A stretch of 64,000 nt of DNA from Syntrophomonadaceae bacterium (GTDB taxonomy: Bacteria > Bacillota > PH28-bin88), in NCBI GenBank assembly GCA_018333865.1, contig JAGXSE010000065.1, positions 112,794-176,793 on the forward strand. The letters run 5' to 3'. A model generated the notes under the pieces. The model saw only the letters and a list, made by a program, of their open reading frames with translations. It was not told the DNA's origin and searched no databases. Made by a program: the position numbers and the translations under genes. Shown in pieces: positions 46,445-63,004 of the stretch. Numbering within the stretch: the stretch's first letter is position 1; each line of letters begins with the position of its first letter.

Positions 46445-46639
46445 GTGACTATTCGTATTGCGTTTGAATTGATCTGTTTGGTAGCGGGAATGGTAATTCT
46501 AGGTAAGGCAGCCTGGATAGGAATTCAGGGAATCAGAATTAAAGATAACCGCGGCAAAGCAGTTTTTTTACACGCCATAATCGCCACTGTATTTGTTCAA
46601 CTCTCACATTATCAGTTTGACATAGTAGTACCCGGCTAG
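46445..46639 (+). CDS. Small membrane protein, unknown
   Basis: 64 aa, GTG start after GGGAGGTGAC. Two hydrophobic segments (residues about 5-25 and 38-55). No family recognised. It is the last gene before the right attachment region. Confidence 0.5.
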   Translation: MTIRIAFELICLVAGMVILGKAAWIGIQGIRIKDNRGKAVFLHAIIATVFVQLSHYQFDIVVPG

Positions 46640-46676
46640 TTTTTTGACCATTTGCTGGCCATTTCAAAAGGTAAAA

Positions 46677-46720
46677 TTGGTGCCATTTTGGTGCCGCAAG
46701 GTGCCCTCTTTTGGCACCAA
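46677..46720 (+). repeat. Right cluster of TTGGTGCC repeats, candidate integrase arm sites
   Basis: TTGGTGCC at 46677 and 46688, AAGGTGCC at 46698 and an inverted GGCACCAA at 46713. Periods of 11 and 10 nt put the direct copies on one DNA face. The same octamer lies in two copies at the left end. Confidence 0.55.
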
Positions 46721-46817
46721 TATTTGTGTTTGGAAAACCATCCCAACAGGGCTTAGGGCCTTGATATAACTGGCTTTTATAGGCTTTCGCTATCTCTGAA
46801 AATCTACCCCCCGGAAT

Positions 46818-46865
46818 ACTCGTAATGCGCAGGCCGCGGGTTCAAATCCCGCCATCAGCTCCAAT
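46818..46865 (+). repeat. attR, 48-bp direct repeat of the tRNA-Thr 3' half
   Basis: Copy of 40893-40940 with one T/C difference; marks the right end of the element. Confidence 0.92.
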
Positions 46866-46874
46866 GAAATTTAT

Positions 46875-46905
46875 AACGCCGCAAGGTAATGCGGCGTTAA
46901 TAGTT
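46875..46905 (+). terminator. Terminator after attR, likely original tRNA-Thr terminator
   Basis: AACGCCGCA/TGCGGCGTT stem with AGGTAA loop, then AATAGTTTCTT. It sits where the tRNA terminator would be before integration. Confidence 0.65.
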
Positions 46906-47053
46906 TCTTGCCCTTTTAGTACTTAATGAGACAGGCAAGCGACATTTTTATGCCTAAAACCATTTCTACATAAAATTAGGAACCATTTGGGGAGAGAACC
47001 ATAATATAAATTAGGCAGCAGCCAAAAAATTATTACAAAGGAGGCTCCCCTGT

Positions 47054-47149
47054 ATGTCATTAGGTTTTCTGCCAGGAAATCCTGGAGTTGGTGTCAGCAG
47101 ACTTTTATTAATTTTCTTGCTTATCCTCTTCCTTTTTGATTTCAAATAG
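47054..47149 (+). CDS. 31-aa hydrophobic peptide (small spore/membrane peptide type)
   Basis: ATG start about 12 nt after AAAGGAGG; 31 codons ending in TAG. The N-terminus is Gly/Pro-rich (MSLGFLPGNPGVGVSR), followed by one membrane helix (LLLIFLLILFLF) and a charged end. Layout recalls the YjcZ-like small peptides of spore formers, but it is too short for a firm family call. Two terminators follow. Confidence 0.55.
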   Translation: MSLGFLPGNPGVGVSRLLLIFLLILFLFDFK

Positions 47150-47169
47150 GTCCGACCAAGTCTGATGAT

Positions 47170-47196
47170 GACAGGGGCGGTTCCCCTGTCTCTTTT
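47170..47196 (+). terminator. Rho-independent terminator after the small peptide
   Basis: GACAGGGG/CCCCTGTC around CGGTT, then TCTTTT. Confidence 0.8.
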
Positions 47197-47219
47197 GAAG
47201 AAAATTAAAGGATAATAGT

Positions 47220-47252
47220 GGGACAGGGAGAATTGCTTTCCTGTCCCTTTTT
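47220..47252 (+). terminator. Second terminator hairpin
   Basis: GGGACAGG/CCTGTCCC, 12-nt loop and TTTTTCTT. Its arms resemble those of the hairpin 50 nt upstream. Confidence 0.75.
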
Positions 47253-47697
47253 CTTGGGGGTGGTAAAGCATATCCTGGTGCGGGAGCAAGAGCAGTTTGA
47301 TAAGATTTGCATAATATCCTTGGCAAAGGATAAAATATAAAAACTATAATGCCAAGTATCCAATTTGTTCTAAGGCCACAGCATATTAATGGTTGTGGCC
47401 TAGCTAATAAAAGTTATTTGATTTCGGAATACAATGTATTCCTGCCAGGAATAGCGCTGATAAAAACTCTTGATCTGCAAACCATTTTGGCAGAAGATAG
47501 TTCCATATTATCGGAAAATAGTCGCAATTATCTTGCAGGCTGCAGGTAAAAGGACAAGGTTGTCGAATAACATGTCATAAATAAACGATTGAAAAGATTG
47601 AATCAGCAATCTTTGCTAAGAATGGAGGGATTTTTGCAGACCTTTTAATTTTATAACAAGTAGCGGCCCCCGGATACCGCCAAATAAAAAGGAGATA
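47253..47697. other. Intergenic stretch without a supported gene
   Basis: 445 bp. One 66-codon frame (47349-47549) lacks a ribosome site and family resemblance. Near the end, GGAGGGATTTTT and AAAAAGGAG appear before the permease gene. No structured RNA recognised. Confidence 0.5.
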
Positions 47698-47727
47698 ATG
47701 AAAAACCCATGGAGAACGTGCAATTGA
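47698..47727 (+). other. Nine-codon upstream ORF overlapping the permease start
   Basis: ATG 47698 (MKNPWRTCN, stop TGA 47725-47727) overlaps the permease start at 47709 in another frame. The AAAAAGGAG site fits neither start ideally: spacing is about 3 nt to this ATG and 14 nt to the permease ATG. It may be a leader that couples translation, or be meaningless. Confidence 0.3.
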
Positions 47728-49094
47728 CTGCGATTCACTGGATTTATATTTTAGTAGTTTTAGCAGTAATAGTAACTATGGTTATGCGCAGAGACACAGT
47801 CCTGCCGTGTATCGTCGGGCTTTTTGTTATTGGTTTTACTTTTACCGGCAGCCTGGTAAGCACCATCCAGATTATTTTTAATGCCTTGGTGGCTGCCGGA
47901 AATGAGTTTTTAGGCATTATTACTGTTATTTCCCTTGTTGTTGCCATGTCCAAGGCGATGGGAGATGTTGGGGTTGACAGGCTGATCATGCAGCCTGCCG
48001 CCAGGTTAATGGTTAGCCCAAATATTGCGTTTTTTGTAGTCGGTTTTGCGATGATGATCGTCGCCTGGTTTGTGTGGCCTTCTCCTGCAGTTGCTTTAAT
48101 TGGCGCCCTGCTTCTGCCGGCAGCGGTTAGGGCCGGCTTGCCTGTAATCGGCGCTGCTGTAGCTATGAATATATTCGGCCATGGCATCGCACTCTCTAGT
48201 GACTGGATTATTCAAGGCGCCCCTGGGTTAAGCGCAAAATTTGCCGGCTTGCCTGATGCCACTGCTGTTACCTCTGCCGGGATTCCCCTATACTTTACCA
48301 TGGCCGTTGTCACAGTTGGAACTGCTTTTTACATGTTGAAGCGGGACATGACAGCCAATAAACAGAAATTTGCTGCAGAAGCCTTGGCCTACCAGGAAAC
48401 CAAGCCCAAGGAAACCAATCATAGTTCAGTGGCCAGCGTATTTGCTATTTTAATTCCTGTAGCTTTTGTTCTGGTGTTGATCGCAATGCTTATGCTGGAC
48501 TTAAGAGGCGGGGATGCCACAGCGTTAATTGGCGGTACAGCCTTGACGATTACTGCCTTATTGTCTGTCATTGCATTTAAGGCCAATGCCTTGGAGCGGA
48601 TTACTGACTATGTGCGGGATGGCTTTATGTTTGGAATTAAAGTATTTGCACCAGTTATTGTTATCGGAGCTTTTTTCTTCCTCGGCTCGGAAGGAACAGC
48701 TAAGGCAATTCTAGGTGAAGGCGCAACTGGTTTGTTAACCGATATCGGCAAGGTCTTAGCTGCTTCTGTCCCAATGAGCGCAGTGCCGGTTGCCTTTATT
48801 CAGATGATAATCGGCGGAATAACTGGATTGGATGGTTCTGGTTTTTCAGGATTACCCTTAACGGGTTCTTTAGCTAATACCCTTGGTTCGGCAATTAATG
48901 CTGATGTCGGTGTGCTGGCTGCCCTGGGCCAGATTTCTGCCATTTGGGTTGGCGGGGGTACAATAATTCCTTGGGGCCTGATTCCTGTAGCTGCCATCTG
49001 TGGAGTTGAACCAATGGAATTGGCCCGCCGCAACTTCTTGCCGGTTATAATTGGATTGCTGGCAACCACAGTTGTGGCAATTATAATGCTGTAG
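47709..49094 (+). CDS. Ion-transporter-superfamily permease (unassigned substrate)
   Basis: 461 aa, about 11-12 membrane helices. Conserved-looking half-helix loops: WFVWPSPAVALIGALLLPAAV in the first half and GITGLDGSGFSGLPLTGSLA in the second, typical of the IT superfamily (GntP/DcuC/CitM-like). It has no binding protein partner, so it is a secondary transporter. It lies upstream of the FCD regulator and the B12-linked locus, for which it may bring in the substrate. Confidence 0.8.
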   Translation: MENVQLTAIHWIYILVVLAVIVTMVMRRDTVLPCIVGLFVIGFTFTGSLVSTIQIIFNALVAAGNEFLGIITVISLVVAMSKAMGDVGVDRLIMQPAARLMVSPNIAFFVVGFAMMIVAWFVWPSPAVALIGALLLPAAVRAGLPVIGAAVAMNIFGHGIALSSDWIIQGAPGLSAKFAGLPDATAVTSAGIPLYFTMAVVTVGTAFYMLKRDMTANKQKFAAEALAYQETKPKETNHSSVASVFAILIPVAFVLVLIAMLMLDLRGGDATALIGGTALTITALLSVIAFKANALERITDYVRDGFMFGIKVFAPVIVIGAFFFLGSEGTAKAILGEGATGLLTDIGKVLAASVPMSAVPVAFIQMIIGGITGLDGSGFSGLPLTGSLANTLGSAINADVGVLAALGQISAIWVGGGTIIPWGLIPVAAICGVEPMELARRNFLPVIIGLLATTVVAIIML

Positions 49095-49112
49095 CTATTT
49101 GTATTAAGAAGC

Positions 49113-49140
49113 GCGCCAGCTTTGCCTGGCGCTTTTTTTA
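49113..49140 (+). terminator. Rho-independent terminator after the permease
   Basis: GCGCCAG/CTGGCGC with a 6-nt loop, then seven T. Confidence 0.85.
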
Positions 49141-49215
49141 TCAATTGTATGGAATATAGATTCATGTTATTATTTAAAATGCGTGGCAACAGTGAAATAT
49201 GCTAGGTGAGGGACT

Positions 49216-49947
49216 ATGTTATCTGAAAAGGACAAGCTAGAATATGAAGTTCTGAAAATCATCGCCGGTGAAGGAAAACCCTTGGGTTCCGGCCTGATCA
49301 GCCAGTCTTTGGCTGAACGGGGGTATGTTTTGAGTGAGGCTACTGCTGGCCGCTTCTTAAGCGAGTTGGATCGCAAGGGGCTTACCCAGAAAGTAGGGTT
49401 CCAGGGCCGCTTGATTTCCCTGAAAGGACAGCAAAGACTGACCGATCTGCAACTTTCTGAGGAGCGTTCAAAATACGGTTTTAGGTTTTTAAACTCCCTT
49501 GATTCCAAGGGAAAGGACGACCTGATTGAAATCCTGGTTGCCCGCAGGGCAATGGAAAGAGAGCTGGCCCGGCTGGCTGCCATTAATGCTACAGAATCGC
49601 AAATTAAACTGTTAAAGAAAATCTATCATGAGCAAGAAAGATATGTTTCCCGGAATCTAGTCTCTGCGGAACAGGATATCAGATTTCACCGGGTAATTGC
49701 TTATTCGGCTAAGAACAAGGTCCTGGCTGCGGCCCTGGATTTGATCCGGCAGAACAGCCAGTTAACTCCCGTACTGGAGCATATCAGGACAAAAGTGGAA
49801 AAGAGGGTGGCTGTTGAGCACGCCAAGATACTGCAAGCAATCGAAGCGAGAAACCCTGAGGAAGCAGACCGGGCCATGGTGGAGCATCTGGAAAGCCTGG
49901 TCCGGGATGTAGTAAATTACTGGGCCCAAGCCAAGGGGAAAATATAG
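49216..49947 (+). CDS. Transcriptional regulator: NrpR/RNase R-type winged helix + FCD ligand domain
   Basis: 243 aa. Residues about 8-70 form a winged helix of the type found in NrpR and at the RNase R N-terminus (LGSGLISQSLAERGYVLSE, then FLSELDRKGLTQK). Residues about 90-235 are an all-helical FCD domain (VARRAMERELARLAA, DIRFHRVIAYSAKNKVLAAAL, EHAKILQAIEARNPEEADRAM). FCD domains normally follow a GntR helix-turn-helix and bind carboxylates with a metal. The His ligands expected of FCD (FHRVI and EHAKI) are present. Probably local regulator of the flanking transport and catabolic genes. Confidence 0.78.
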   Translation: MLSEKDKLEYEVLKIIAGEGKPLGSGLISQSLAERGYVLSEATAGRFLSELDRKGLTQKVGFQGRLISLKGQQRLTDLQLSEERSKYGFRFLNSLDSKGKDDLIEILVARRAMERELARLAAINATESQIKLLKKIYHEQERYVSRNLVSAEQDIRFHRVIAYSAKNKVLAAALDLIRQNSQLTPVLEHIRTKVEKRVAVEHAKILQAIEARNPEEADRAMVEHLESLVRDVVNYWAQAKGKI

Positions 49948-50078
49948 GCTGCCAAAACCCTAATCCATCAGGAACAGGGCTTTCTTTTTATTATGGAAAA
50001 AATATTTTTAATGACAGGATTTTTTAAGGAAATGTAGAAGAAACTAAGCAAGCTCATCACTGATGAGGAGGCTGAAGA

Positions 50079-50510
50079 ATGGACCCATATGATTTAGGGT
50101 TATTCCGGGATAACCCATACAAAGAAAAGATGGACATCAGAGGGAGGCTTGTGGTTGTCCTGCAAGGGGCTTTGGATGACCGGCAGCTGAAACTGATCAA
50201 GACTATTTCCCGGGCAGTTAAACGGTATGAAGTCCACGAAATTATTTTGACGGACGAGGAGCAGTCTGGGCCAGGGGCAACGGTTAACCGGGTTATTTAT
50301 ATCGGTTTTATGGAAGTAACCAGGAGCGGGGTGATTGTATCCGGGGATGAGTTCTTCCTGGGGGACAGGTTGTTAGGGACTGTGGCCGGGTTTGATGAGA
50401 CTCACCTGCCGAATCACTTGAACATTGTGATTCAGGCGGGTTCAGGGATCTATGCACCGGCAGTTTTGGGGGAAAAAATTGTCATCAGGCAGAAAAAGGA
50501 GGAAAACTAG
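50079..50510 (+). CDS. Conserved hypothetical protein beside the PLP enzyme
   Basis: 143 aa, ATG start after TGAGGAGG. Predominantly beta, with LVVVLQGALDDRQLKLI and GFDETHLPNHLNIVI as recognisable blocks; no membrane segment. I do not recognise the family. Its stop touches the next start (TAGATG), which points to a complex with the PLP enzyme. Confidence 0.75.
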   Translation: MDPYDLGLFRDNPYKEKMDIRGRLVVVLQGALDDRQLKLIKTISRAVKRYEVHEIILTDEEQSGPGATVNRVIYIGFMEVTRSGVIVSGDEFFLGDRLLGTVAGFDETHLPNHLNIVIQAGSGIYAPAVLGEKIVIRQKKEEN

Positions 50511-51974
50511 ATGAAAAAACCGAAATTTAAATTTCAAATGTACAAACACTTGCAGGCCAATCTGGCTAATATCTATGCCGAGGCTAAGAAGGCCGCTGAC
50601 GAAATTGGCATTCCCGCAGAATTAAGAGGCAAATTTGGCTTGACTGGGGCCATTTCTGGTTGCCCTGCCCCGCTCAGGAATGATATTTTAGAGGCCGGAG
50701 AAAAAGGGGCGGTGGAAGTAGTCCCTTTAAGCAAGCTAATGGATGAAATAAGAGAAACTGTTAAAGATGTTTATGGGGACGGATATGATGCCGCTGCTAC
50801 CAGCACCTGCGAGGCAGGTCTCTGGGTGACCTTTGATACCCTGTTCTCTCCGCCTATTACAGGCCGGGGAGACAACTATCGCGCCCGTTATATCGCCCCC
50901 TACGAAAAGCACTTGCATCACCAGGGCAGTTATGGCCGGCCCTTTCCTCCCAGGTTTAAAGAGCTTTTTGCAGACCGGGGCTCCACCGCAGGTGAATTGG
51001 GTTTCTCAGGCAAAAGGCAGAACAATCTTGATACGGTAATTGTTCCTTTAGAAGGAGCCAGATATGATGTGCACGGGATTAAGTATCACCCGGTACCAAT
51101 GCTGGCAGATGTTGACCCCGAAGCCTCTATTGAAAAAATCGCTCTCCATGCAGAAATCCATGAGACTATGTTGACAGGCTTTACTTCCCTTGGCTATGAT
51201 ACCCCCGGGTATGGTTATCGGGTGAAAGATGATGCCGGGGTGCCGCTCCTGCAGAAATATCTGGCCGATTTAGCCCATTCCTACGACCTGCCTTATGTGG
51301 TAGATAATGCCTGGGGCTTGCCATTTGTCGGTTTTGATCCTGTCAAAACCGGCGCTGACATTGTGATTTACAGTATGGACAAGGCCAGTGGTGCGGCCAC
51401 CAGCGGGCTCATTATCGGCAAAGAAGAATATATGGTTCCGATCCGCCGGGCTTTAGGGATGCACGGGGACAGGTGGGGGACTACCGCCTCTTATGGCAAG
51501 GCAGCCTACGTCACCTTTGATCCGGGCAAGGAGGCCCTGTTGACCCAAATCCAGGCCTTGAAGGTTTTGCGGGATAACCCTGCCCTTCTAACAAAACCCG
51601 TGGACGACCTGGAGCGGATTGTCAAGGAAGAGTTTGCCACTTTGCCAGCAGAGCTCCTGCAGGGGATAATCATCAGCAAGTCCTACAACTCTACTGCAGT
51701 AGAGGTCAACTATGAGGGCACCTGGAAAGATGGCCAAATGGGCATCCCCGTTTTTACAATTGAAGATATGTATTCTGGCACCAATATCTTGCAGACCGGC
51801 TGCGCACAGATGGGTATTATCCCAACTGTTGCTTATGATGCCAATATATACATTTCTCCTGGTTTGGGCACCACCGATGCTAACGGTCAACTATTGGAAG
51901 CTGAAGCTCGCTGGGCTGTAAAAGGTCTGGTCAGGCTGATTGAGATTGTCTGCAGGTACGCACAGGTAATTTGA
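50511..51974 (+). CDS. Fold-type I PLP-dependent enzyme, function unknown
   Basis: 487 aa. The PLP lysine lies in YSMDKASGAATSGLIIG (about residues 289-305), with the aspartate-like partner in VDNAWGLPFVGF (about residue 265), as in SelA or group II/V fold-type I proteins. An N-terminal 120-residue extension has CPAPLRNDILEAGEKGAVEV and TSTCEAGLWV. Not OrtB-like (fold II). It could be a lyase, thiolase-like or aminotransferase-like enzyme of amino acid breakdown. Co-transcribed with the preceding gene. Confidence 0.72.
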   Translation: MKKPKFKFQMYKHLQANLANIYAEAKKAADEIGIPAELRGKFGLTGAISGCPAPLRNDILEAGEKGAVEVVPLSKLMDEIRETVKDVYGDGYDAAATSTCEAGLWVTFDTLFSPPITGRGDNYRARYIAPYEKHLHHQGSYGRPFPPRFKELFADRGSTAGELGFSGKRQNNLDTVIVPLEGARYDVHGIKYHPVPMLADVDPEASIEKIALHAEIHETMLTGFTSLGYDTPGYGYRVKDDAGVPLLQKYLADLAHSYDLPYVVDNAWGLPFVGFDPVKTGADIVIYSMDKASGAATSGLIIGKEEYMVPIRRALGMHGDRWGTTASYGKAAYVTFDPGKEALLTQIQALKVLRDNPALLTKPVDDLERIVKEEFATLPAELLQGIIISKSYNSTAVEVNYEGTWKDGQMGIPVFTIEDMYSGTNILQTGCAQMGIIPTVAYDANIYISPGLGTTDANGQLLEAEARWAVKGLVRLIEIVCRYAQVI

Positions 51975-52024
51975 GGTGACAGTTAAACCCGGCTGGAAAC
52001 TAAGGATTTAATTTACTAACTGGG

Positions 52025-52059
52025 TTGCCAGGCTGTTGACTAAGACAACAGCCTGGCAA
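52025..52059. other. Very strong perfect stem-loop between the PLP and FAD genes
   Basis: TTGCCAGGCTGTTG pairs perfectly with CAACAGCCTGGCAA (14 bp) around ACTAAGA. No T-run follows on either strand, so it is not a standard terminator. It probably affects mRNA processing or partial termination. Confidence 0.65.
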
Positions 52060-52090
52060 AAGCAAACTAAATCTGCAAAGGGGGATGCAC

Positions 52091-53374
52091 TTGGTACGCA
52101 CAGTGATTATCGGTGGGGGTTGGGCCGGAGTAGGGGCGGCTGTTGCAGCTGCTAAAGCAGGGAGCCGGGTAACTTTGTTGGAACGCACTGATATGCTCCT
52201 GGGTACAGGTCTGGTCGGCGGAATTATGCGAAATAACGGTAGATTTACTGCTGCCGAGGAGACCATTGCTATGGGTGCTGGAGAAGTCTTCGCAGCCATT
52301 GACAAGTGCGCTCGTCACCACAACATCGAGTTTCCCGGTCACAGACATGCAACTCTTTATGACGTAGCTTTGATTGAGCCTATAATAAGAAGTCTTTTGC
52401 TGGAGCACGGGGTGGAGATCAAGTTTTTTAGCCGGGCTGCTGATGTGGAGATGGCCGGAACGAAAATAGCCGCAGTTTTACTGCCAAACGGACAGAAGGT
52501 GACCGGGGAAGTATTTGTAGATACAACTGGTTCAGCCGGTCCTATGGGCAACTGCGCAAAGTACGGCAACGGATGCGCCATGTGCGTCCTCCGCTGCCCT
52601 ACATTTGGTGGTCGGGTCAGCATAGCGGCCAAGGCTGGTGTGCAGGAGTTTATGGGTAAAAGATCAGACGGGGCAATAGGGGCTATGAGCGGCTCATGCA
52701 AATTATTAAAAGAATCCCTGTCCCCTGGCATAGTTCGGGAACTGAACGCAAAAGGAGTTGTGGTGATTCCGATCCCCGAAAAACTGCGCAAGGGAGAAGG
52801 AATGCTTTCAACTAAGGCTTGCCAGCAGTATGCCCTGAAAGAATTTGCGGATAATATTATCATGCTCGATACTGGGCATGCCAAACTAATGTCTCCTTTT
52901 TACCCGTTAGAACTATTAAGGCAAATTCCGGGGTTAGAAAACGCCCGGTTCGAGGATCCTTACAGTGGCGGAATTGGCAATTCAATACGCTATCTGGCGC
53001 TATCTCCCCGGGACAATGCCCTCAAGGTTAAGGGGCTCGACAATCTTTTTTGTGGAGGCGAAAAAGCCGGCTTGCTCGTGGGCCACACTGAGGCCGTTAT
53101 CACCGGCACTTTAGCCGGTTATAATGCAGCTTCTTATGCTGCAGGCCTGGATTCTTTGGTCATTCCCCAGAGTCTGGCCATTGGAGATGCTGTCGCCCAT
53201 GTTAATGAAATGATGGACACCCCGGAAGGCCTAACAAAAAAATACACCTTTTCCGGTGCAGATTATTTTGTCCGCATGTTGGAAAAGGGTTTATACACGG
53301 TTGATGTGGATGCCATCAGGCTAAGAGTGCAGGAAGCAGGAATGTCAGGAGTCTTTGAAAGATCAGTCTTGTAG
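52091..53374 (+). CDS. FAD-dependent oxidoreductase
   Basis: 427 aa from TTG 52091, six nt after AAAGGGGG; the ATG at 52085 abuts the ribosome site. N-terminal dinucleotide fold VIIGGGWAGVGAAVAAAKAG and ERTDMLLGTGLVGG; second FAD contact GEVFVDTTGSAG; C-terminal GLDNLFCGGEKAG. A cysteine group at about residues 155-172 (NCAKYGNGCAMCVLRC) could carry an Fe-S cluster or redox disulfide. Resembles GidA/FixC-like flavoproteins. The substrate is not known. Confidence 0.8.
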   Translation: MVRTVIIGGGWAGVGAAVAAAKAGSRVTLLERTDMLLGTGLVGGIMRNNGRFTAAEETIAMGAGEVFAAIDKCARHHNIEFPGHRHATLYDVALIEPIIRSLLLEHGVEIKFFSRAADVEMAGTKIAAVLLPNGQKVTGEVFVDTTGSAGPMGNCAKYGNGCAMCVLRCPTFGGRVSIAAKAGVQEFMGKRSDGAIGAMSGSCKLLKESLSPGIVRELNAKGVVVIPIPEKLRKGEGMLSTKACQQYALKEFADNIIMLDTGHAKLMSPFYPLELLRQIPGLENARFEDPYSGGIGNSIRYLALSPRDNALKVKGLDNLFCGGEKAGLLVGHTEAVITGTLAGYNAASYAAGLDSLVIPQSLAIGDAVAHVNEMMDTPEGLTKKYTFSGADYFVRMLEKGLYTVDVDAIRLRVQEAGMSGVFERSVL

Positions 53375-53381
53375 CATCCGG

Positions 53382-54212
53382 CTAGTCGAACAAAGTTACT
53401 GCCAAGGGTGTGGATAAATTGGATCTGAACATGGCCTGAGCGACTCTCTTATGTAGATCAACGCTCCCCAGGCTGCAGCAGTAATTTATGCCCCTAGCCG
53501 CCGCAGAACTAAAAATAGCGGTAAAGTCGGTTCCGATGCAATTGAGCTGTGCCCCTAAATCCAAGACTTTCCTTTTAAGTACTGTTTGAGGTTCAGCTAT
53601 AACTACATCAATTTCGTTCCCCTTACCTGCCAGGAAATTTTGCACTAATGCTGGCACCATAAGTTCCCCCAGGCCCTCAGCGATGATCAGTATTTTTCCG
53701 TTTGAGGTTTTGGCCAGGGGGGCTAGACCGAGTACAGTTGTTCTGCCTGTTGTTTCCAGATAATAGTTTAGGTGTTTGGACGTCAATAATCTCTCATCGA
53801 GGAGGGAAGTTTTAATTCCCAAACTAACCACCTGGTGTGCCGGATATTTCTGCAAGATCACTGCACTGACGCGGTAGCTCTTGGCGGAAATGGATGAGCA
53901 GAAATAGACCTTATCCAAAGAACTTAATTTGTCTAAGAACTCGGGTGATACCGCCAGATAAAGCAGGAAAGTGTCCTCCCTCAGCTTGAGGCAGCGCAGC
54001 AAAACTGCGCCCGTCATAGTTGAAACTTTGGGTATTATGGTTCCGTTATGCAAATAATTAAGATAGACGCATACCTTTTGCCAATCGCAGTCACATAATT
54101 CTTTGTTGGCCTGTAAGTGGCTGCAAATCATGCATTCCTGCAACGTGGCAAGGATGCAGGGACAGATTTCCGAGTTGCAGACATCGCAAGGTTCAGTTTT
54201 TAATACCTGCAT
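53382..54212 (-). CDS. Cys-rich ferredoxin-reductase-like (PyrK-like) oxidoreductase, tentative
   Basis: 276 aa from ATG 54212, preceded by GGGGAGGAAGTG; a longer frame to 54359 has no such signal. The N-terminal 50 residues have ten Cys (CDVCNSEICPCIL, ECMICSHL, LCDCDWQKVC), fit for one or two Fe-S or zinc sites. The rest resembles a ferredoxin-reductase/PyrK-like layout: a flavin-type barrel region (STMTGAVLLRCLKLREDTF) and a nucleotide-type fold (KILIIAEGLGELMVPALVQ). It faces the mutase genes across a 98-bp divergent region. Confidence 0.55.
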   Translation of the reverse strand: MQVLKTEPCDVCNSEICPCILATLQECMICSHLQANKELCDCDWQKVCVYLNYLHNGTIIPKVSTMTGAVLLRCLKLREDTFLLYLAVSPEFLDKLSSLDKVYFCSSISAKSYRVSAVILQKYPAHQVVSLGIKTSLLDERLLTSKHLNYYLETTGRTTVLGLAPLAKTSNGKILIIAEGLGELMVPALVQNFLAGKGNEIDVVIAEPQTVLKRKVLDLGAQLNCIGTDFTAIFSSAAARGINYCCSLGSVDLHKRVAQAMFRSNLSTPLAVTLFD

Positions 54213-54310
54213 GGTGGTCACTTCCTCCCCGAAATTTTTGCATAATATGTTATGCTGATGTTTTTCAGATGCTACAAAATTGGGCCCCCAAGAGGAAAGG
54301 GGATGGTTTT

Positions 54311-54553
54311 TTGCCAAAAGTATTTGATTATGTGATGGACGGATTGGACATAGAAACATTTATTGCTTGCGACAGCGAGGAGGAAGGACGGCAACTGGCC
54401 AACAGCCTCCTGCAGGAGCTGGGTTTTTCGGATTATGATATTGTATTTATTCAGTTTCATGGCCCCGGGGTGCGGCTTAGGGCCAGGGCCTACCTCCACC
54501 GGTCTGGCGACCGTTACGGGTGGTTGATAGGAGAAAGGGAAAGAGGAAAATAG
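54311..54553 (+). CDS. Small conserved hypothetical protein before the mutase
   Basis: 80 aa from TTG 54311, preceded by AAAGGGGATGG; a longer start at 54269 is possible. Sequence is acidic at the N-terminus (VMDGLDIETFIACDSEEEG) and basic at the end. No family recognised and no resemblance to the OraS subunit of ornithine aminomutase. It abuts the mutase gene with no gap, so it may be a small subunit or chaperone. Confidence 0.6.
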   Translation: MPKVFDYVMDGLDIETFIACDSEEEGRQLANSLLQELGFSDYDIVFIQFHGPGVRLRARAYLHRSGDRYGWLIGERERGK

Positions 54554-56383
54554 ATGGAACAAGTGTATTCAAAACACGTTCTTTTAGTTCCTTTTGATCC
54601 GGTTCATGACATCGGCTTAAAAATGATCCAGCGTGGTTTGGAAGAGGCCGGGCACTGCACTTATTTGCTTCCCCCTGACTTGACTCCGGAAGAAATCATT
54701 GGTGAAATACTGGTAAGAAAAACGGATATAGTTCTGCTCAGCCGTACTTTAGGTTACGGGGTGGCAGAGCTGTTAGGCCGGTTTATTGATATGGCGGATG
54801 CTGCCGGAATCAGGGAAAGGGTGCGGTTTGGCATCGGGGGGATGGCCATTAGGCCTGAACTGGCAGCCGAGCTTGGCTTTGACGGTGGGTTTGGTCCCGG
54901 AACCACTGTTGAGGAGGCTGTTGCCTTTGTTGAGGGACGGGAATTTCTGCGCCAAAAAGAACGGAGCTTTAAACAAAAAAAGGAATTGACCGCAGGCTAT
55001 TCCTATCAGTACAGCCACCAAAACATCGGGAGCCTGTTAGGAAAAATAACCCAGGGAATACTGGATTGGTCCGCTGACAAAACCTCCCCGGGAGTAGAAA
55101 GGGCCAAACTGAGGGATGAACTATGGGATGTGATTCGCTGGCGTAATAGGGAAACCTTGCATGAATTCCTGACTGAGTACCCCAAACTTTGCGGTGAACA
55201 GCCCAGGCTGGCTTACACCAAGGGGATCATGCACCCCAAAACCCGCCGGTTTACCCGGGAAGAAGTAATTGCTCTGGAAAAATATGTTGAAGACACCAAA
55301 AGTCGCATGGTAGTGCCAAGCATCCAGCATACCCGGCAGAAACCAGTTATATTTAATCAGTACGGCACCGGATGTCCCTTTATGGATGTGGGCCATATTA
55401 AAGTCAGTGAGGCCTGGGGGGCAGATGGTGTGGTCCATTTCGACCCTTCCTGGGGTGCCCGGACCGAAGGCTTTCTTGATGGTTTCTTAACCCACCAGGA
55501 AGACGGCACGGTGATTACCCCCGCCAACCTGAACCGGATTCACCAGGCGTTGGAGCCTAGTACCCTCTGGCAGGTAAGAGCTCACAGGGGCTTGAATACA
55601 CCTGAAACTGTCGTCTTGGCTGCCAAAATCGGGGCAGACCTGACCAAAATCAATATTTGCTACGGCGCATTGGGGGCAGGCACAGACCCGGCCCGGATGA
55701 CTATTGACGGAGTTTGGGCTGTGCGGTATGCGGCTAAATATGGGCTGCCCTTTGATGTGGTTACCAACGAAGAATTATGTGGTGTTCCGGCTTATAAGGC
55801 CTTTGCCGGAATGCTGATTACTGCTGACCTTGCCCTCAGGCTTGGAGCCAAGCCAGTATTGCAGCCACTGTTTTGCTTTTCTCCTGAAGTTATGATCGGA
55901 GGGCAGATGGCCGACAATTATGTAGATTTTAATGTCGCCAAGGTATTGGCACTAAGAGCTGTGCTCCATGCTCCTGTCTGGCCTGGTGCACCAATTGGCT
56001 TTTTAACCCATACGGAGGACAGGGTGCAGTCTGCAACTACTACCGCCCTGCATGCCTGTTTGGCCGCTTTGCTGGATGTCGATGCCATTACTATTGCTTC
56101 TTCCGATGAAGCATACTCTGGAGGCCCGATTACAGTGCCGGCAAAAGTCGATACCCTAAAGGCAGTAGGAGAGGGACTGCGCTTTTTTGGTCATACCAAT
56201 ATAGTTCCTACAGCCAAGGCCTTTGATTGGAGTCAGGATATTCTGCAGGGCATCGAAGAAGTCTTGGACAAAGTTGCTGCCTCAGGCGACTTTGTCCAGG
56301 CTCTTTATGATGGCCTGCTGGGGAGCCGGGAGGAGGGCGCATACCCGGGAAGGGCAGGAAAGGGAACAGTAACCCCTCGATGA
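54554..56383 (+). CDS. Cobalamin-binding + TIM-barrel mutase (glutamate mutase/aminomutase-like)
   Basis: 609 aa. Residues 1-135 are a B12-binding Rossmann domain: HVLLVPFDPVHDIGLKMIQ, then LLPPDLTPEEI and GIGGMAIRPELA. Residues about 240-590 form a TIM barrel like glutamate mutase E/OraE (GTGCPFMDVGHIKVSEAWGA, RAHRGLNTPETVVLAAKIGADL, ATTTALHACLAALLDVDAI). The usual DxHxxG motif reads P-V-H-D-I-G: the axial His is kept, its Asp partner is replaced by Pro. Likely an adenosylcobalamin-dependent rearrangement of an amino or carboxylic acid. Overlaps the P-loop gene by 4 nt (ATGA). Confidence 0.82.
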   Translation: MEQVYSKHVLLVPFDPVHDIGLKMIQRGLEEAGHCTYLLPPDLTPEEIIGEILVRKTDIVLLSRTLGYGVAELLGRFIDMADAAGIRERVRFGIGGMAIRPELAAELGFDGGFGPGTTVEEAVAFVEGREFLRQKERSFKQKKELTAGYSYQYSHQNIGSLLGKITQGILDWSADKTSPGVERAKLRDELWDVIRWRNRETLHEFLTEYPKLCGEQPRLAYTKGIMHPKTRRFTREEVIALEKYVEDTKSRMVVPSIQHTRQKPVIFNQYGTGCPFMDVGHIKVSEAWGADGVVHFDPSWGARTEGFLDGFLTHQEDGTVITPANLNRIHQALEPSTLWQVRAHRGLNTPETVVLAAKIGADLTKINICYGALGAGTDPARMTIDGVWAVRYAAKYGLPFDVVTNEELCGVPAYKAFAGMLITADLALRLGAKPVLQPLFCFSPEVMIGGQMADNYVDFNVAKVLALRAVLHAPVWPGAPIGFLTHTEDRVQSATTTALHACLAALLDVDAITIASSDEAYSGGPITVPAKVDTLKAVGEGLRFFGHTNIVPTAKAFDWSQDILQGIEEVLDKVAASGDFVQALYDGLLGSREEGAYPGRAGKGTVTPR

Positions 56384-57459
56384 ACCCGATCGTGATCGGA
56401 ATAACCGGAACGGCTAAAAATACCGGCAAGACTACTGCCACAGGCGCATTGTCTGAATATTTTGCTCATCACCAAACCCCAGTCGGCATCACCAGCATTG
56501 GCTATGATGGTGAAAGGGTTGATAATGTGACGGGCTTGCCGAAGCCCAGGCTGCACCTGAAGCCAGGGACACTGGTCGCACTTGCCGAAAAATGCCTTGC
56601 CGCCAGCAGCGCCAGGATCAATGTCCTGGCAAGGAGTGATATTTTCACCCCTTTAGGCAGGGTTATTTACGGCCAGGTGACCAGCGAAGGACTGGTTGTT
56701 GTTGCCGGACCGAATAAAAGCCGCGAACTGCGTCAGGTGATCCATCGTTTGGCTGAGATTGGCGCAGGCTTAATTTTAGTCGATGGGGCCTTAAACAGGA
56801 TTGCACCTATGGTTGAAACCACAGGCATTGTATTGGCTACTGGCGCAGCCAAAGAAACCAATGTTGAGAAACTTGTTTGGCAAACCAAGTCTATTGAAAA
56901 AATTTTCTGCCTGCCGCAGGTGAGTTTAAAACATTCCCTGGAAAAAACCATCATTTTAAGCCAGGATTTATCAACTATCCTGGCCGAAGGATCGCCATCT
57001 ATGCTGAGCGAGGCTAGCCTGCGGGACTTGTTAGCAGAATGTTCCCCTGGGGCGGGAGCTGTATTGGTTCTGCCGGGCATCGTATCCTTAAATTGCCTGG
57101 CGGAGCTATTGCCCTGGATGAGCGAAAAATTGTCGTCGGTTATTTTTAGAGATCCGGTAAAATTAATGGTTACCGGCGATGTGGTCGCAGTAACAAATTT
57201 CATTGACCAGGTAGAGGCTAAAGGCGGTCAAGTAGGCTATCTCTGGCCATTAAAACTAATTGCCGTAACTGTTAATCCCTTTTATCCCCGTTACAGGTAT
57301 GAATATGCGGATTACCTGGCGGAGTATGTTGATGCCAGGCACCTGTACAGCGCAATGGCTCAGGCTCTAAGCGTGCCGGTATATGATATATTTGTGCATG
57401 GGGTTGAAGAACTTGCGCAAAAGATTCGCCATCTGAGTTCAGATGCATGCACATTTTAA
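56380..57459 (+). CDS. P-loop protein, probable mutase reactivase (KamB-like)
   Basis: 359 aa. P-loop GITGTAKNTGKTTATGAL at the N-terminus; an acidic Walker B-like segment (LILVDGALNRIAPM) at about residue 127. Location directly after the B12 mutase with ATGA overlap recalls aminomutase operons, in which a P-loop protein helps exchange damaged cobalamin. I cannot confirm the KamB assignment from sequence alone. Stop at 57459. Confidence 0.65.
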   Translation: MNPIVIGITGTAKNTGKTTATGALSEYFAHHQTPVGITSIGYDGERVDNVTGLPKPRLHLKPGTLVALAEKCLAASSARINVLARSDIFTPLGRVIYGQVTSEGLVVVAGPNKSRELRQVIHRLAEIGAGLILVDGALNRIAPMVETTGIVLATGAAKETNVEKLVWQTKSIEKIFCLPQVSLKHSLEKTIILSQDLSTILAEGSPSMLSEASLRDLLAECSPGAGAVLVLPGIVSLNCLAELLPWMSEKLSSVIFRDPVKLMVTGDVVAVTNFIDQVEAKGGQVGYLWPLKLIAVTVNPFYPRYRYEYADYLAEYVDARHLYSAMAQALSVPVYDIFVHGVEELAQKIRHLSSDACTF

Positions 57460-57544
57460 CTGGCGTAACCAGCCCCTTGACTTTTCTCTTGAGTTGATTT
57501 ATAAAATAATCTTGAGGGAAAATGATGCGAAAGGAGTGAGCACT

Positions 57545-57814
57545 GTGCCGACCTATGAATATAAGTGCCTCAAATGCGGCATTTTTGAGCAGTTTCAAGC
57601 CATTACTGAAAAACCTCTGGAACAGTGCCCTGATTGCTATAATCCGGTTCAACGGCTGATCAGCAAGAACGTGGGCATCATGTTTAAAGGTTCCGGTTTT
57701 TATGTCACCGATAACCGCAAGAGCGGCGGAACAGGCGATGATAAACCGGCTAAAAAGGATGATCCTGCCTCTACTCCGCCGGCAAGCTCCGGTCCGCCTG
57801 CTGCCGCTAGTTAA
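57545..57814 (+). CDS. FmdB-family zinc-ribbon protein
   Basis: 89 aa from GTG 57545, preceded by AAAGGAGTG. Starts PTYEYKCLKCG, with a second pair CPDC about 24 residues on: a four-Cys zinc ribbon. Then GSGFYVTDNR and a Pro/Ser/Ala-rich tail. FmdB-like proteins are common regulators or chaperones near formamidase and amide genes; role here unknown. Confidence 0.85.
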   Translation: MPTYEYKCLKCGIFEQFQAITEKPLEQCPDCYNPVQRLISKNVGIMFKGSGFYVTDNRKSGGTGDDKPAKKDDPASTPPASSGPPAAAS

Positions 57815-57839
57815 AAACCAAGATACTTATTGTTAACCT

Positions 57840-57866
57840 GCAGGCCTTCATTGGCCTGCTTTGCTT
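57840..57866 (+). terminator. Rho-independent terminator after the FmdB gene
   Basis: GCAGGCC/GGCCTGC around TTCATT, then TTTGCTTTT. Confidence 0.8.
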
Positions 57867-57941
57867 TTGGGGCGCCGGTGGGCCCGAAGAAAAAAGGAAT
57901 ATCTGCAATACTGTAGAATTTGTTATTTTATAGTTTATTGA

Positions 57942-59687
57942 ATGGATGATGAAATTTTGCAGGACCTAAAAAACCAGATGAGTGTAATCCTGAATTCCAC
58001 CCATGAGGGAGTTATGGCTGTTGACAGCCAGGGCAGGATTACGGTTTTCAACAGGGCTGCGGAAGAACTGACCGGAGTCAAGGCCAAAGACGCTATTGGC
58101 CGTCTGGTTACTGAGGTAATCCCCAATACCAGGCTGCACCTTCTGCTTCGAACCGGCGCGACTGAGCTGAATCAGCGGCAGCAGCTCGGCCATATCACTA
58201 TTGTTACAAACCGGGTTCCGATCAAGGACGTGTCGGGAAAGATTATCGGTGCTGTAGCAGTATTTCGCGATATCACAGATGTAATAAACCTGGCCGAAGA
58301 GGTTACTAGCCTGAAAGAGACCCAAATGATGCTGCAGGCCATAATCAATTCCACTCAGGACGCCATTTCCGTTGTGGATGAAAATGGCATGGGTCTTTTG
58401 ATTAACCCTGCTTATACTCGTTTAACCGGCTTTACGGAAAAAGACGTGATCAATCAACCGGCGACCGTAGATATTGCTGAAGGGGAGAGTATGCATCTCC
58501 AGGTATTAAGGACAGGCCAGCCGGTCAAAGGAGTACCAATGAAGGTCGGTCCGGCGCGCAAGGCTGTGCTGGTTGACGCGGCACCCATCGTGGTAAGAAA
58601 TGTTCTCAAGGGGAGTGTAGCAGTCATCCATGACGTATCGGAGATTTTCCGCCTGTCCGAAGAATTGGATTCAGCCCATCGGCTGATCCGCCGTCTCGAA
58701 GCCAAGTATTCGTTTGACGATATTGTTGGAGTAAGTGAGGAAATCACTTATGCAATAGCCCAGGCAAAAAAAGCTGCTGAGATCCCCGCAACAGTCCTAT
58801 TAAGGGGAGAAAGCGGCACTGGCAAGGAATTGTTTGCTCACGCCATTCACAACACTAGCCTGCGGCGGCGGGGCCAGTTTGTTAGAGTAAGCTGTGCCGC
58901 CATTCCGGAAAGTCTTTTGGAGAGCGAGCTCTTTGGCTATGTGGAAGGAGCCTTTACGGGAGCAAAGGTCAGTGGGCGCCGTGGATACTTTGAGGAGGCT
59001 GATAAGGGGACCCTTTTTCTCGATGAAGTAGGCGAAATAAATCTGACGGTACAGGCAAAGCTCTTGCGGGTCCTGCAGGAAAGGGAAATTGTCCGGGTGG
59101 GTGATAATAAACCGGTATCAATCAATGTCAGGATAATTGCCGCAACCAATGCCAATCTGGAGGAAAGAGTAAAAAAGGGGCAGTTCCGGGAAGATTTGTA
59201 CTATCGTCTGAATGTGGTCCCGGTCTATATTCCTCCTTTGCGCCAGCGCAAGGCAGATATTCCCCACCTGGCAAGCTATTTGATTCGCAAATTTAATCAA
59301 GAGTATGGCCGTAATGTGACCGGAATCTCTCCCGGAGCCTTGAACCGGCTAATGGATTATTTCTGGCCGGGGAATGTGAGGGAATTGGAAAATATTTTGG
59401 GGCGTGCGATTATTAACCTTGGTTACGGACAAACCACTATTGAGGCGGAGCACCTGCCACCACTAGTAAGTTCTTTGGAAACCCAGATCTCTGGAAGTTG
59501 TGGTATGAGAACCGATCGTGTTCACTGGACTGGGGGAGCCCTGGAGGAAATGCGGAATAAATGGGAAAAAGAAGTTGTTGCTGAAGCCCTTGCCCAGGTT
59601 GGCGGAAACCGGGCCAAAGCAGCCGAACTCCTGGACATTTCTATTCGCAGCCTTTATCAGAAGTTGAGAAAGTTTGGCATCTCATAA
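57942..59687 (+). CDS. Sigma54-dependent enhancer-binding regulator (PAS-PAS-AAA+-Fis)
   Basis: 581 aa. Two PAS domains (residues about 10-115 and 125-235; EGVMAVDSQGRITVFNRAAEELTG is the first). AAA+ core at about 255-490, with Walker A GESGTGKE, the sigma54-contact loop GAFTGA, Walker B GTLFLDEVGE and the arginine finger region. C-terminal Fis helix-turn-helix (ALAQVGGNRAKAAELLDIS). No Shine-Dalgarno site is obvious before ATG 57942; ATG 57978 is an alternative. It lies just upstream of a perfect sigma54 promoter and probably activates the leucine dehydrogenase/vor operon in response to an amino or keto acid. Confidence 0.93.
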   Translation: MDDEILQDLKNQMSVILNSTHEGVMAVDSQGRITVFNRAAEELTGVKAKDAIGRLVTEVIPNTRLHLLLRTGATELNQRQQLGHITIVTNRVPIKDVSGKIIGAVAVFRDITDVINLAEEVTSLKETQMMLQAIINSTQDAISVVDENGMGLLINPAYTRLTGFTEKDVINQPATVDIAEGESMHLQVLRTGQPVKGVPMKVGPARKAVLVDAAPIVVRNVLKGSVAVIHDVSEIFRLSEELDSAHRLIRRLEAKYSFDDIVGVSEEITYAIAQAKKAAEIPATVLLRGESGTGKELFAHAIHNTSLRRRGQFVRVSCAAIPESLLESELFGYVEGAFTGAKVSGRRGYFEEADKGTLFLDEVGEINLTVQAKLLRVLQEREIVRVGDNKPVSINVRIIAATNANLEERVKKGQFREDLYYRLNVVPVYIPPLRQRKADIPHLASYLIRKFNQEYGRNVTGISPGALNRLMDYFWPGNVRELENILGRAIINLGYGQTTIEAEHLPPLVSSLETQISGSCGMRTDRVHWTGGALEEMRNKWEKEVVAEALAQVGGNRAKAAELLDISIRSLYQKLRKFGIS

Positions 59688-59688
59688 G

Positions 59689-59735
59689 ATGCAACTGTCT
59701 GCAGTGCAAAAAAATGCACGTGCAAAATGTTGCAT
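59689..59735. promoter_or_regulatory. Nested inverted repeats, candidate enhancer (UAS) for the sigma54 activator
   Basis: Outer arms ATGCAAC (59689-59695) and GTTGCAT (59729-59735); inner arms GTGCA (59704-59708) and TGCAC (59715-59719). They lie about 100-145 nt upstream of the -24/-12 element, the usual enhancer distance. Confidence 0.55.
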
Positions 59736-59810
59736 TCACCCATGACACCAACCAGACAACCTGACGCATAAAAAAAGCAGGCATTGCAAGGGTATTTCAT
59801 AATTATCAGG

Positions 59811-59848
59811 AAGGGTGCCTTTTTGACGAAAGTGGCACCCTTTTTGCA
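59811..59848 (+). promoter_or_regulatory. Sigma54 (-24/-12) promoter overlapping a terminator hairpin
   Basis: TGGCAC-N5-TTGCA at 59833-59848 matches the -24/-12 consensus. AAGGGTGCC (59811-59819) pairs perfectly with GGCACCCTT (59834-59842), followed by TTTGCA after the stem, so the promoter's -24 element is also the 3' arm of a terminator-like hairpin. Confidence 0.8.
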
Positions 59849-59913
59849 TTAAAAGTAAGTTGTCGGTAAGTTATTGATAGTTTGTTTGCCTTTGCAGACG
59901 GGAGGGTTGTACA

Positions 59914-60993
59914 ATGAATATCCTGAAAGAAATGGAATTATTTAACTATGAAAACTTGGTCTTCGGCCAGGACCGGGATTCCGGTTTAAAAGCTATTATA
60001 GCCATTCATGATACTACACTGGGTCCAGCTCTGGGCGGGACTCGGATGTGGGCTTATTCGTCGGAAGAAGAAGCTGTATGGGATGTGTTGCGTTTAGCCA
60101 GAGGGATGACTTATAAAGCTGCTGTTGCCGGTTTAGAATTAGGCGGGGGCAAAGCGGTAATAATCGGCAATCCTAGGCAAGAAAAAAGCGAGAAATTGCT
60201 CCGGGCTTATGGCCGCTTTGTCGATACACTAAAAGGCAAGTATATTACTGCGGAGGATGTGGGTACCTGCCAGCAGGATATGGATATCATCAGCCAGGAA
60301 ACTGCTCATGTTGTGGGAGTTGACCCAGCCAAAGGCGGCAGTGGGGACCCTTCGCCCTTTACGGCTTTGGGTGTTTTTCATGGCATGAAAGCAGCTGCAA
60401 AATTTGTTTACGGCAGTGAAAGCCTTGCGGGGAAACGGGTAGCGGTGCAGGGAATAGGCAATGTAGGATATCACCTGTGCAATTTGTTAGCCGAAGAAAG
60501 GGCCGAACTGGTAATCACCGATATCAACCAACCTGTTGTTGAGGAGGCAGTTCGGGAGTTCGGGGCGGATGCTGTTTTGCCGCAAGATATATTTTCTGTG
60601 CAGTGCGATATTTTTGCTCCTTGTGCACTGGGTGCGGTGATTAACGATGAGACTATTCCCAGGTTGAAATGCAGGATTGTGGCAGGCGCGGCAAATAATG
60701 TCCTGGCAGAAGAGTATCATGGAGAACGTCTGATCGAAAAAGGTATCCTTTATGTCCCTGATTATGTTATTAATGCAGGTGGGTTAATAAATGTAGCGGA
60801 AGAACTTTGTGGTTATCAGCGGCAGCGGGTAATCGACAGGGTAGTCAGGATTTATGACAGCGTAACTGAAGTATTACAGATTAGCAGGAGAGAAGCCATT
60901 CCTCCCTTTCAAGCTGCCAACAGGCTGGCCGAGGATAGGATTGCCAGCAGGAAAAACAGGGGGTCATTACAAGGAGTGAGTAAAGTTGGCTAA
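59914..60993 (+). CDS. Leucine/valine dehydrogenase (Glu/Leu/Phe/Val dehydrogenase family)
   Basis: 359 aa, ATG start after GGGAGGG. Catalytic Lys in [18 protein letters not shown] (about residues 68-85), NAD-binding [13 protein letters not shown], and [17 protein letters not shown]. Length and motifs match leucine dehydrogenases (Bcd). It deaminates branched-chain amino acids to 2-oxo acids, which the next four genes oxidise. It has a sigma54 promoter and overlaps vorD by 8 nt. Confidence 0.93.
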
Positions 60994-61216
60994 GAAGGGC
61001 TTGGCGCTTTTTGAAGAGGAGCGATGCAAAGGTTGTGAACTTTGCATTACCGCTTGCCCAAAAAAAATTGTGTATCTGAATGGGCGATTAAACCAGTCTG
61101 GCTATCCCGTCGCCGGGGTGACAGATATGAATGAATGCATTGGATGTGCCATGTGCGCCTTGATGTGCCCCGATCTGGTGATTACTGTGAAAAGGGGGGA
61201 AGCCCCTTGCGAATGA
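60986..61216 (+). CDS. vorD: 2-oxoacid:ferredoxin oxidoreductase, ferredoxin-like delta subunit
   Basis: 76 aa, TTG start after AAGGAGTG. Two [4Fe-4S] motifs: [13 protein letters not shown] and [13 protein letters not shown]. It passes electrons from the alpha-beta core to ferredoxin. Its TGA overlaps the next ATG. Confidence 0.92.
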
Positions 61217-62277
61217 TGATGAAGGGAAACGAAGCAATCGGAGAGGCAGCTGTAAGGGCTGGATGCCGTTACTTTTTCGGATATCCCATCACGCCGCAGA
61301 ACGAATTGCCCGAATACCTTTCCTATCGGCTGCCTGAAGCAGGCGGGGTATATCTGCAGGCGGAAAGCGAAATTGCAGCTATTAATATGGTATTCGGGGC
61401 TGCCGGTGCCGGAGCACGGGTACTGACGTCTTCTTCCGGACCTGGGATCAGCCTGAAGCAAGAAGGAATTTCTTTTCTGTCCGGGGCCGAGTTGCCCTGT
61501 GTAATAGTAAACATTATGCGCGGCGGGCCGGGCCTGGGGGGAATCCAGCCTGGTCAGGCGGATTATTTTCAAGCCACTCGTGGCGGTGGCCATGGTGACT
61601 ATCGAACCATAGTTCTGGCTCCTGGCTCAGTTCAGGAAATGGCGGATTTTACTTATTGGGCCTTCGAATTGGCCGATAAATACCGGAACCCGGTTTTGAT
61701 CCTGGGGGACGGGGTCTTAGGCCAAATGATGGAACCTGTTGTATTCCCGCCGGAGGCCAAGGCGGATCAAACAAATAAGCTTTGGGCCACAACAGGGTGC
61801 CGGGGCCGCCAGCCAAATATTATCAAGTCTCTTTATTTAAACCCGGAAGAGCTGGAAGAACAAAACAAAAAACTGCAGGAAAAGTTTGAGCTAATTATGC
61901 AAGAGGTTAACCGGGCGGAAAAATACCAGGTTGAAGACGCAGAAATAATTCTGATTGCATACGGCATTTCCGCGCGGGTGAGTTTGGCAGCGATTGATGC
62001 TGCCAGAGAAGAGGGAATCAAGGTGGGGTTGTTCCGTCCAATCACCCTATGGCCTTTTCCGGAAAAAATCCTTCTGGAATCGTTATCAAAGGCAAAGAAG
62101 CTTCTGGTTGTAGAAATGAGTGCCGGTCAGATGATTGAAGATGTCAGGCTGGCTGTTTGCGGCAGGTTGCCTGTCCATTTTTACGGTCGAACCGGGGGCA
62201 TGTTGCCATCAGCCAAAGAAATTCTGTCCAAAATTAAAACGCTGGGAGGTGGGGCAAGTGGACGTAGTATTCGCTAG
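61213..62277 (+). CDS. vorB: 2-oxoacid:ferredoxin oxidoreductase, alpha subunit
   Basis: 354 aa from ATG 61213 (ATGA overlap with vorD); TTG 61207 has better spacing from AGGGGGG and is an alternative. [29 protein letters not shown] is typical of VorB/KorA. Further motifs [13 protein letters not shown] and RGGPGLGG. Insert of charged helix at about residues 215-240 ([19 protein letters not shown]). Oxidative decarboxylation of 2-oxoisovalerate-type acids to acyl-CoA. Confidence 0.92.
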
Positions 62278-63001: not shown

Positions 63002-63004
63002 TTC

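Follow-up and report, generated by a model that had tools for sequence, protein, structure and literature searches.

Adenosylcobalamin (AdoCbl)-dependent amino-acid mutases are few, and the reactions that they catalyze are chemically unusual. The described systems closest to the locus treated here are lysine 5,6-aminomutase (KamD/KamE, with KamB), D-ornithine 4,5-aminomutase (OAM; OraS/OraE), and glutamate mutase (MutS/MutE). In lysine 5,6-aminomutase, pyridoxal 5'-phosphate (PLP) is contacted by K144, S238, Y263, N299, R184, R268, S189, G187, Q188, and Y236 (PMC3958899). In OAM, Glu338 drives Co-C homolysis (PMC4413051). The locus lies in a 64,000-nt stretch of contig JAGXSE010000065.1 from a Syntrophomonadaceae bacterium (the window; all coordinates are positions in it, on the forward strand) and is built around the gene for a 609-residue protein predicted to be a B12-dependent mutase. 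As judged from sequence comparison, this mutase would represent a third lineage of lysine/ornithine-aminomutase-type AdoCbl enzymes, with the parts of a known kind of enzyme in a new order. An earlier note on this DNA had proposed an uncharacterised B12-dependent catabolic locus; the analysis supports this, with catabolism as the probable role.

The mutase and its immediate partners are laid out as follows:

54311..54553, + strand: small subunit, 80 aa, OAM_dimer-like and free-standing (profile-profile match and position)
54554..56383, + strand: predicted B12-dependent mutase, 609 aa (PF02310, 48 bits)
54569..54937, + strand: mutase residues 6-128, B12-binding Rossmann domain (alignment with KamE, OraE, MutS, and corrinoid proteins; 104 family sequences)
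54995..55228, + strand: mutase residues ~148-225, OraS/KamD-N-like accessory segment (hhalign to OraS)
55316..56380, + strand: mutase residues ~255-609, KamD-like TIM barrel (hhalign to KamD/OraE; four-family alignment and tree)
56380..57459, + strand: KamB-type P-loop reactivase, 359 aa (NF052386 reactivase_KamB)

The order of domains, B12 domain first (residues 6-128) and barrel second (~255-609), is as the earlier note gave it. The Rossmann domain carries the motif D15-x-H18-x-x-G21 (DPVHDIG), in which D15 and H18 are near-invariant among the 104 sequences and the glycine is replaced by alanine in a few; the alignment with KamE, OraE, MutS, and corrinoid proteins places no PLP-lysine insert in this domain. 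OraS aligns with residues 148-191 (hhalign P 1.8e-5, and 0.31 for the reversed control), with TSPGVERAKLRD of the accessory segment facing TSPAVERSVLLR of OraS. For the barrel, the match to KamD extends along the full length (P 2.3e-6 across 405 columns) and that to OraE is in the same register (P 1.3e-3), while the MutE comparison gave P 0.04 and was out of register; the MutE-family barrel PF06368 had no Pfam match in the 609-residue protein. Consistent with this, the best Foldseek match of the AlphaFold model (predicted local distance difference test score, pLDDT, 79) is KamD (1xrs_A, E 1.2e-14), followed by OraE and then MutE. On these comparisons, the protein is an enzyme of lysine 5,6-aminomutase type whose parts have been rearranged into a B12 domain, an OraS-like segment, and a KamD-like barrel, in that order. 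The claims that OraS and Kam-type substrate subunits are absent were thus mostly wrong, because the modules are present in permuted form.

Previously listed as a small unknown, the gene 5' of the mutase resembles the OAM_dimer domain of KamE and OraE. Against PF16554 (OAM_dimer), two family members give weak matches at E 0.09 and 0.18 (13.6 and 12.7 bits), below the Pfam gathering score of 25 bits, so that the assignment comes from position and from profile-profile comparison, in which the small gene aligns where expected with KamE (hhalign P 1.5e-5) and OraE (2.6e-3). Its start is most likely the TTG at 54311, giving 80 codons. On the 3' side, the P-loop partner of the earlier note is where it was described and belongs to a known family, with residues 6-337 covering positions 1-326 of the KamB reactivase model at 220 bits (cut-off 210). 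Judged by sequence, all the modules of lysine and ornithine aminomutases are therefore present but reordered, with a separate gene for the dimer domain and the B12, OraS-like, and barrel parts in one chain. It is scarcely credible that the 609-residue protein is instead a corrinoid methyl-transfer or sensory protein with no isomerase function: the B12 domain also resembles that of methyltransferase corrinoid proteins, but the barrel and accessory segment resemble those of mutases, the glutamate that cleaves the Co-C bond is conserved, and an aminomutase-type reactivase lies alongside.

In the barrel tree, with MutE as the outgroup, KamD and OraE group together (support 100) and the 609-residue family falls outside them (100). 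The B12-domain tree likewise joins KamE with OraE (98) and sets the family apart. The protein is thus placed outside KamD/E, OraE, and MutE/S by both the barrel and the B12 domain; the grouping inside a characterised mutase family that would have refuted the earlier note was not seen in either tree. It seems to us highly improbable that the protein is an unrecognized but otherwise conventional lysine or ornithine aminomutase with D-lysine, beta-lysine, or D-ornithine as its substrate. Its modules are those of KamDE/OraSE plus KamB, but, apart from the two trees, the PLP pocket is gone, OrtAB were not found, the OAM substrate-binding R297/Q299 region is not conserved, and one genome with the 609-residue family (G033) also has a true KamD. 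In the window's own genome, KamD and OraE were not found.

The PLP-binding residues of KamDE and OraE are lost in the family, which the first reading of the locus overlooked. The lysine-bearing insert equivalent to K144 is missing from the family (104 sequences aligned), as is the insert with the PLP-tethering Lys629 of OraE. The R184 position is occupied by D297, the G187-Q188-S189 phosphate loop is deleted, S238, which faces the pyridine nitrogen, is replaced by R345 and Y236 by A343, and R268 is not conserved. The sole PLP contact retained is Y263, as Y370; the alignment at N299 is ambiguous. The catalytic machinery is kept: E519 (SSDEA) aligns with OAM Glu338 (ITPDEG) and with the conserved glutamate of MutE (TPHEA), R342 aligns with the arginine of the MutE QVR motif, and R342, R345, K365, Y370, and E519 are invariant in the barrel. 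Because the PLP tether and pocket of KamDE and OraE are lost, this AdoCbl mutase most likely works without PLP, or else binds it in a new way; a change in cofactor use is plausible.

The remaining genes of the locus are:

47709..49094, + strand: permease, 461 aa, of its own family and weakly CitMHS-like (the window copy has no Pfam match above cut-off)
49216..49947, + strand: FCD-type transcriptional regulator, 243 aa (PF07729, 77 bits; HTH_12 PF08461, 44 bits)
50079..50510, + strand: DUF6917 protein, 143 aa (PF21891, E 5.9e-43, 146 bits)
50511..51974, + strand: orphan fold-type-I PLP enzyme, 487 aa (local family matches and AlphaFold model)
52085..53374, + strand: GidA/TrmFO-like FAD protein, 429 aa (PF01134, 106 bits; conserved four-Cys group C-x6-C-x2-C-x3-C)
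53382..~54212, - strand: Cys-rich FAD/NAD-binding oxidoreductase, PRK05802-like (NF004470, 83.5 bits, under the 313-bit cut-off)

All genes listed in the earlier note were found in place, except that the permease lies just outside the span 49216-57459 given for the locus. The start of the oxidoreductase is taken from conservation, since the conserved region begins near 54212 rather than 54359. The stop of the DUF6917 gene immediately precedes the start of the PLP gene (50510/50511).

We surveyed 398 genomes of the phylum and fetched 79 named loci. Full-length members of the 609-residue family (53-75% identity) occur in 38 of the 398 genomes, and loci were found in Bacillota and also in Atribacteria, Pseudothermotoga and another Thermotogota metagenome-assembled genome, Treponema, and Ca. 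Adiutrix. The small gene lies immediately 5' of the mutase in all 77 loci (of the 79) that have upstream DNA, and KamB immediately 3' in 52 of 77. Where the flanks reach 9 kb or more in both directions, 39 of 42 loci contain the PLP gene. Across whole genomes, the PLP enzyme occurs in 38/38 with the mutase and 1/360 others (Fisher p ~2e-52, shared ancestry uncorrected), and eight of the nine genomes lacking the PLP gene in the fetched flank have it elsewhere. In Thermotogota and one Atribacterium, the PLP gene shares a contig with the mutase at a distance of ~12-15 kb, and DUF6917 and Rid genes adjoin it where seen; its apparent loss in these lineages is thereby refuted. This genome-wide co-occurrence, and the presence of the PLP gene on the same contig where the flank lacked it, indicate that the mutase and the PLP enzyme belong together. 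The locus is real, widespread, and conserved, far beyond chance. No earlier description of it was found in the open-licence literature. The other genes are less constant: the FCD regulator occurs in 47/79 loci, DUF6917 in 46/79, the Cys-rich oxidoreductase in 14/79, and the permease near 24/79.

The PLP enzyme matches the Cys/Met, SelA, and DgaE families over a local stretch only, and the structures nearest to its AlphaFold model (pLDDT 83) are SepCysS and SelA; Lys291 probably holds PLP. Neither it nor its partner resembles the ornithine pathway proteins (DUF6917 against OrtA, hhalign P 0.42; PLP enzyme against OrtB, P 0.28), in agreement with the earlier note's statement that OrtA and OrtB are absent. 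In many relatives, a Rid gene stands beside the PLP enzyme and DUF6917, and two different Rid subfamilies are involved: that of Bacillota is PF14588, while a Thermotogota locus (L201) has TIGR00004 (185 bits, cut-off 106), with a similar short Rid in an Atribacterium (L203). The gene order in both L201 and L203 is Rid-DUF6917-PLP. Rid proteins hydrolyse enamines and imines. The PLP enzyme encoded beside them is therefore probably a lyase with an enamine or imine as its product, and its association with DUF6917 and Rid suggests a catabolic amino-acid pathway.

The PLP module also occurs in other settings. At L192:6998-9609 (G256:C34), a Rid gene (57%), a PLP enzyme (55%), and DUF6917 are grouped in the order Rid-PLP-DUF6917, with no mutase nearby, so that the module seems separable from the mutase; genome G256 also contains a third PLP paralogue, which is more distant (L191). 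In the same genome as the window, ~71 kb upstream (L181:9108-11875, G000:C65), further copies of the PLP enzyme (80% identical) and of the FAD protein (66%) adjoin heterodisulfide-reductase-like genes, with no second mutase. The FAD protein is present in the locus, as the earlier note had it, but it is not specific to it: 113/398 genomes carry the family, and we rejected it as a dedicated locus enzyme. It often stands beside the Cys-rich oxidoreductase far from any mutase (e.g. L185:6808-9049, L190:4313-6585).

Hints to the substrate come from genes that vary among the loci. The transporters change with lineage (own permease, oligopeptide ATP-binding cassette (ABC), TRAP, Na+:dicarboxylate symporter, branched-chain-type ABC), and the permease homologue of the Thermotogota locus L113 (48% identical) matches CitMHS PF03600 below cut-off (E 1.1e-5). 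We think it rather improbable that the mutase rearranges the carbon skeleton of an acidic amino acid in the manner of glutamate mutase, as a functional counterpart of MutSE. The alignments of R342 and E519 with MutE would suit such an enzyme, as would the acid-type transporters (CitMHS-like, Na+:dicarboxylate symporter, TRAP) and the Asp/Glu racemase of some loci, but the similarity to MutE is negligible, the reactivase is of KamB type and not MutL, methylaspartate ammonia-lyase was not seen at the locus, and the transporters vary from lineage to lineage. A divergent MutE-like protein (PF06368, 536 bits) is encoded at L152:5864-7315 (G000:C56) without MutS or MutL neighbours; its gene adjoins an ABC transporter and phnG/phnH-like genes.

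In Thermotogota and one Atribacterium, DapF-like and diaminopimelate-dehydrogenase-like genes lie upstream of the mutase. At L113, TIGR00652 and TIGR01921 matched at 241 and 297 bits, both above cut-off; among Thermotogota, DapF is found in three loci and the dehydrogenase in two. The Atribacterium genome has a second, better-scoring DapF elsewhere, and diaminopimelate dehydrogenase was not found in the window's own genome. Because the pair is confined to these lineages, we treat it as a hint and not as part of the core. Its likeness to the racemase-mutase-dehydrogenase logic of ornithine fermentation offers only a hint of a diamino acid substrate.

With modest confidence, we favor the reading that the genes of the locus form a catabolic amino-acid pathway around a third-lineage aminomutase-type AdoCbl enzyme, which would work as follows. 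The permease would take up the substrate, which the FCD regulator would sense. The small subunit and the 609-residue protein would together form the mutase, with cobalamin bound base-off/His-on via His18 of the N-terminal Rossmann domain. Once the substrate is in the barrel, the Rossmann domain would move over it, Glu519 would promote Co-C homolysis, and the deoxyadenosyl radical would drive a 1,2-rearrangement. The mutase would do so without PLP, with R342 and R345 anchoring the carboxylate somewhat as in glutamate mutase, and KamB would use nucleotide to swap out inactivated cobalamin. The PLP enzyme and DUF6917 may then cleave or deaminate the product, the lyase role and the order of steps being our proposal, to give an enamine or imine, which would be hydrolysed by the Rid protein encoded at the locus in many relatives. 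A bolder form of this proposal falls just short of an even chance in our estimation: a third, PLP-free class of aminomutase-type AdoCbl enzyme, catalyzing an undescribed rearrangement, possibly of a diamino-dicarboxylic acid such as diaminopimelate, and feeding the orphan PLP lyase, DUF6917, and Rid in a new anaerobic pathway spread over several phyla.

Several observations weigh against the favored reading. Branches are long in both trees, so the exact placement of the family is soft, and the remote homologies come from single hhalign comparisons with shallow profiles. The Paenibacillus copy (L112) sits in a genome without the PLP partner, in a record that is apparently frameshifted. The window has no Rid gene, and the FAD protein family is widely found without the mutase. 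Within the barrel, R345 at the Ser238 position could touch the ring of PLP, as an arginine does in alanine racemase, and K365 and K415 are invariant lysines, so PLP may be bound otherwise. These residues bring in a rival that we consider unlikely, though the least so of the alternatives: a PLP- and B12-dependent aminomutase in which K365 or K415 holds PLP, R345 faces its pyridine nitrogen, and the Gly-rich loop AYSGGPI lies by its phosphate, and which shifts the amino group of a diamino acid. Its nearest relatives, KamD and OraE, both use PLP, the stacking tyrosine is retained as Y370, K365 and K415 are near-invariant, and the diaminopimelate-type genes adjoining the mutase in Thermotogota and one Atribacterium parallel the racemase and dehydrogenase of ornithine fermentation; yet the tether lysine, the phosphate motif R-T-x-G-Q-S, and the pyridine serine are all gone.

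Around the locus, Pfam and NCBIfam show mreC/PBP2/RodA, RadC, spmAB/DacF, spermidine synthase/arginase, and ClpB to be ordinary chromosomal flanks, and we rejected them as pathway genes. Rfam gave no riboswitch match across 46500-58000. Directly downstream (57942-63562) lie a sigma-54-type activator, a Leu/Glu-type amino acid dehydrogenase, and three 2-oxoacid:ferredoxin oxidoreductase-like genes, an amino-acid fermentation set mostly missing from related loci. At the other end of the window (756-3420), a 622-aa protein joins a corrinoid-type B12-binding domain to an apparent sensor histidine kinase, and the gene after it encodes an AraC-type response regulator; both stand beside a corrinoid methyltransferase-like gene (3-692).

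If the favored reading is true, a lineage with lysine/ornithine aminomutase architecture minus the PLP site would reveal the relation between PLP-assisted and PLP-free radical mutases, and functions would follow for DUF6917, for the orphan PLP enzymes, and for a dimerisation domain that stands by itself. A further prediction is that subsurface and syntrophic anaerobes (Peptococcaceae, Sporomusa, Heliobacteria, Atribacteria, Thermotogota) have a route of this kind for fermenting an amino acid.

Compared with known systems, the 487-residue PLP enzyme is like SelA/SepCysS/DgaE-type enzymes in fold and lysine segment, but it shares 12-14% identity with them, is longer, has its own conserved blocks, and, unlike them, accompanies the mutase in every sampled phylum genome that has it, with one exception. 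The mutase shares with lysine 5,6-aminomutase the dimerisation-like domain, B12 Rossmann domain, accessory segment, TIM barrel, and KamB, and its barrel is closest to KamD in profile and fold. It differs in that the dimer domain is a separate gene, the B12 domain is fused ahead of the accessory segment and barrel, the PLP-tethering lysine and pocket are lacking, the lineage is separate, and the neighbours are other genes. With D-ornithine 4,5-aminomutase, it has in common the OraS-like TSPxxER segment, E519 as the equivalent of Glu338, and the C-terminal YPxRxGxGxV motif; in contrast to OraSE, the OraS-like part is internal, the B12 domain is N-terminal, and Lys629 and Ord/OrtA/OrtB are missing. 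Glutamate mutase likewise has no PLP lysine, and its QVR and xxEA barrel motifs align with those of the family, but its sequence is distant, its subunits are separate, its reactivase is different, and no methylaspartate ammonia-lyase lies near the locus described here. The mutase would thus work like a KamDE/OraE-type AdoCbl mutase while being a member of none of KamDE, OraSE, and MutSE.

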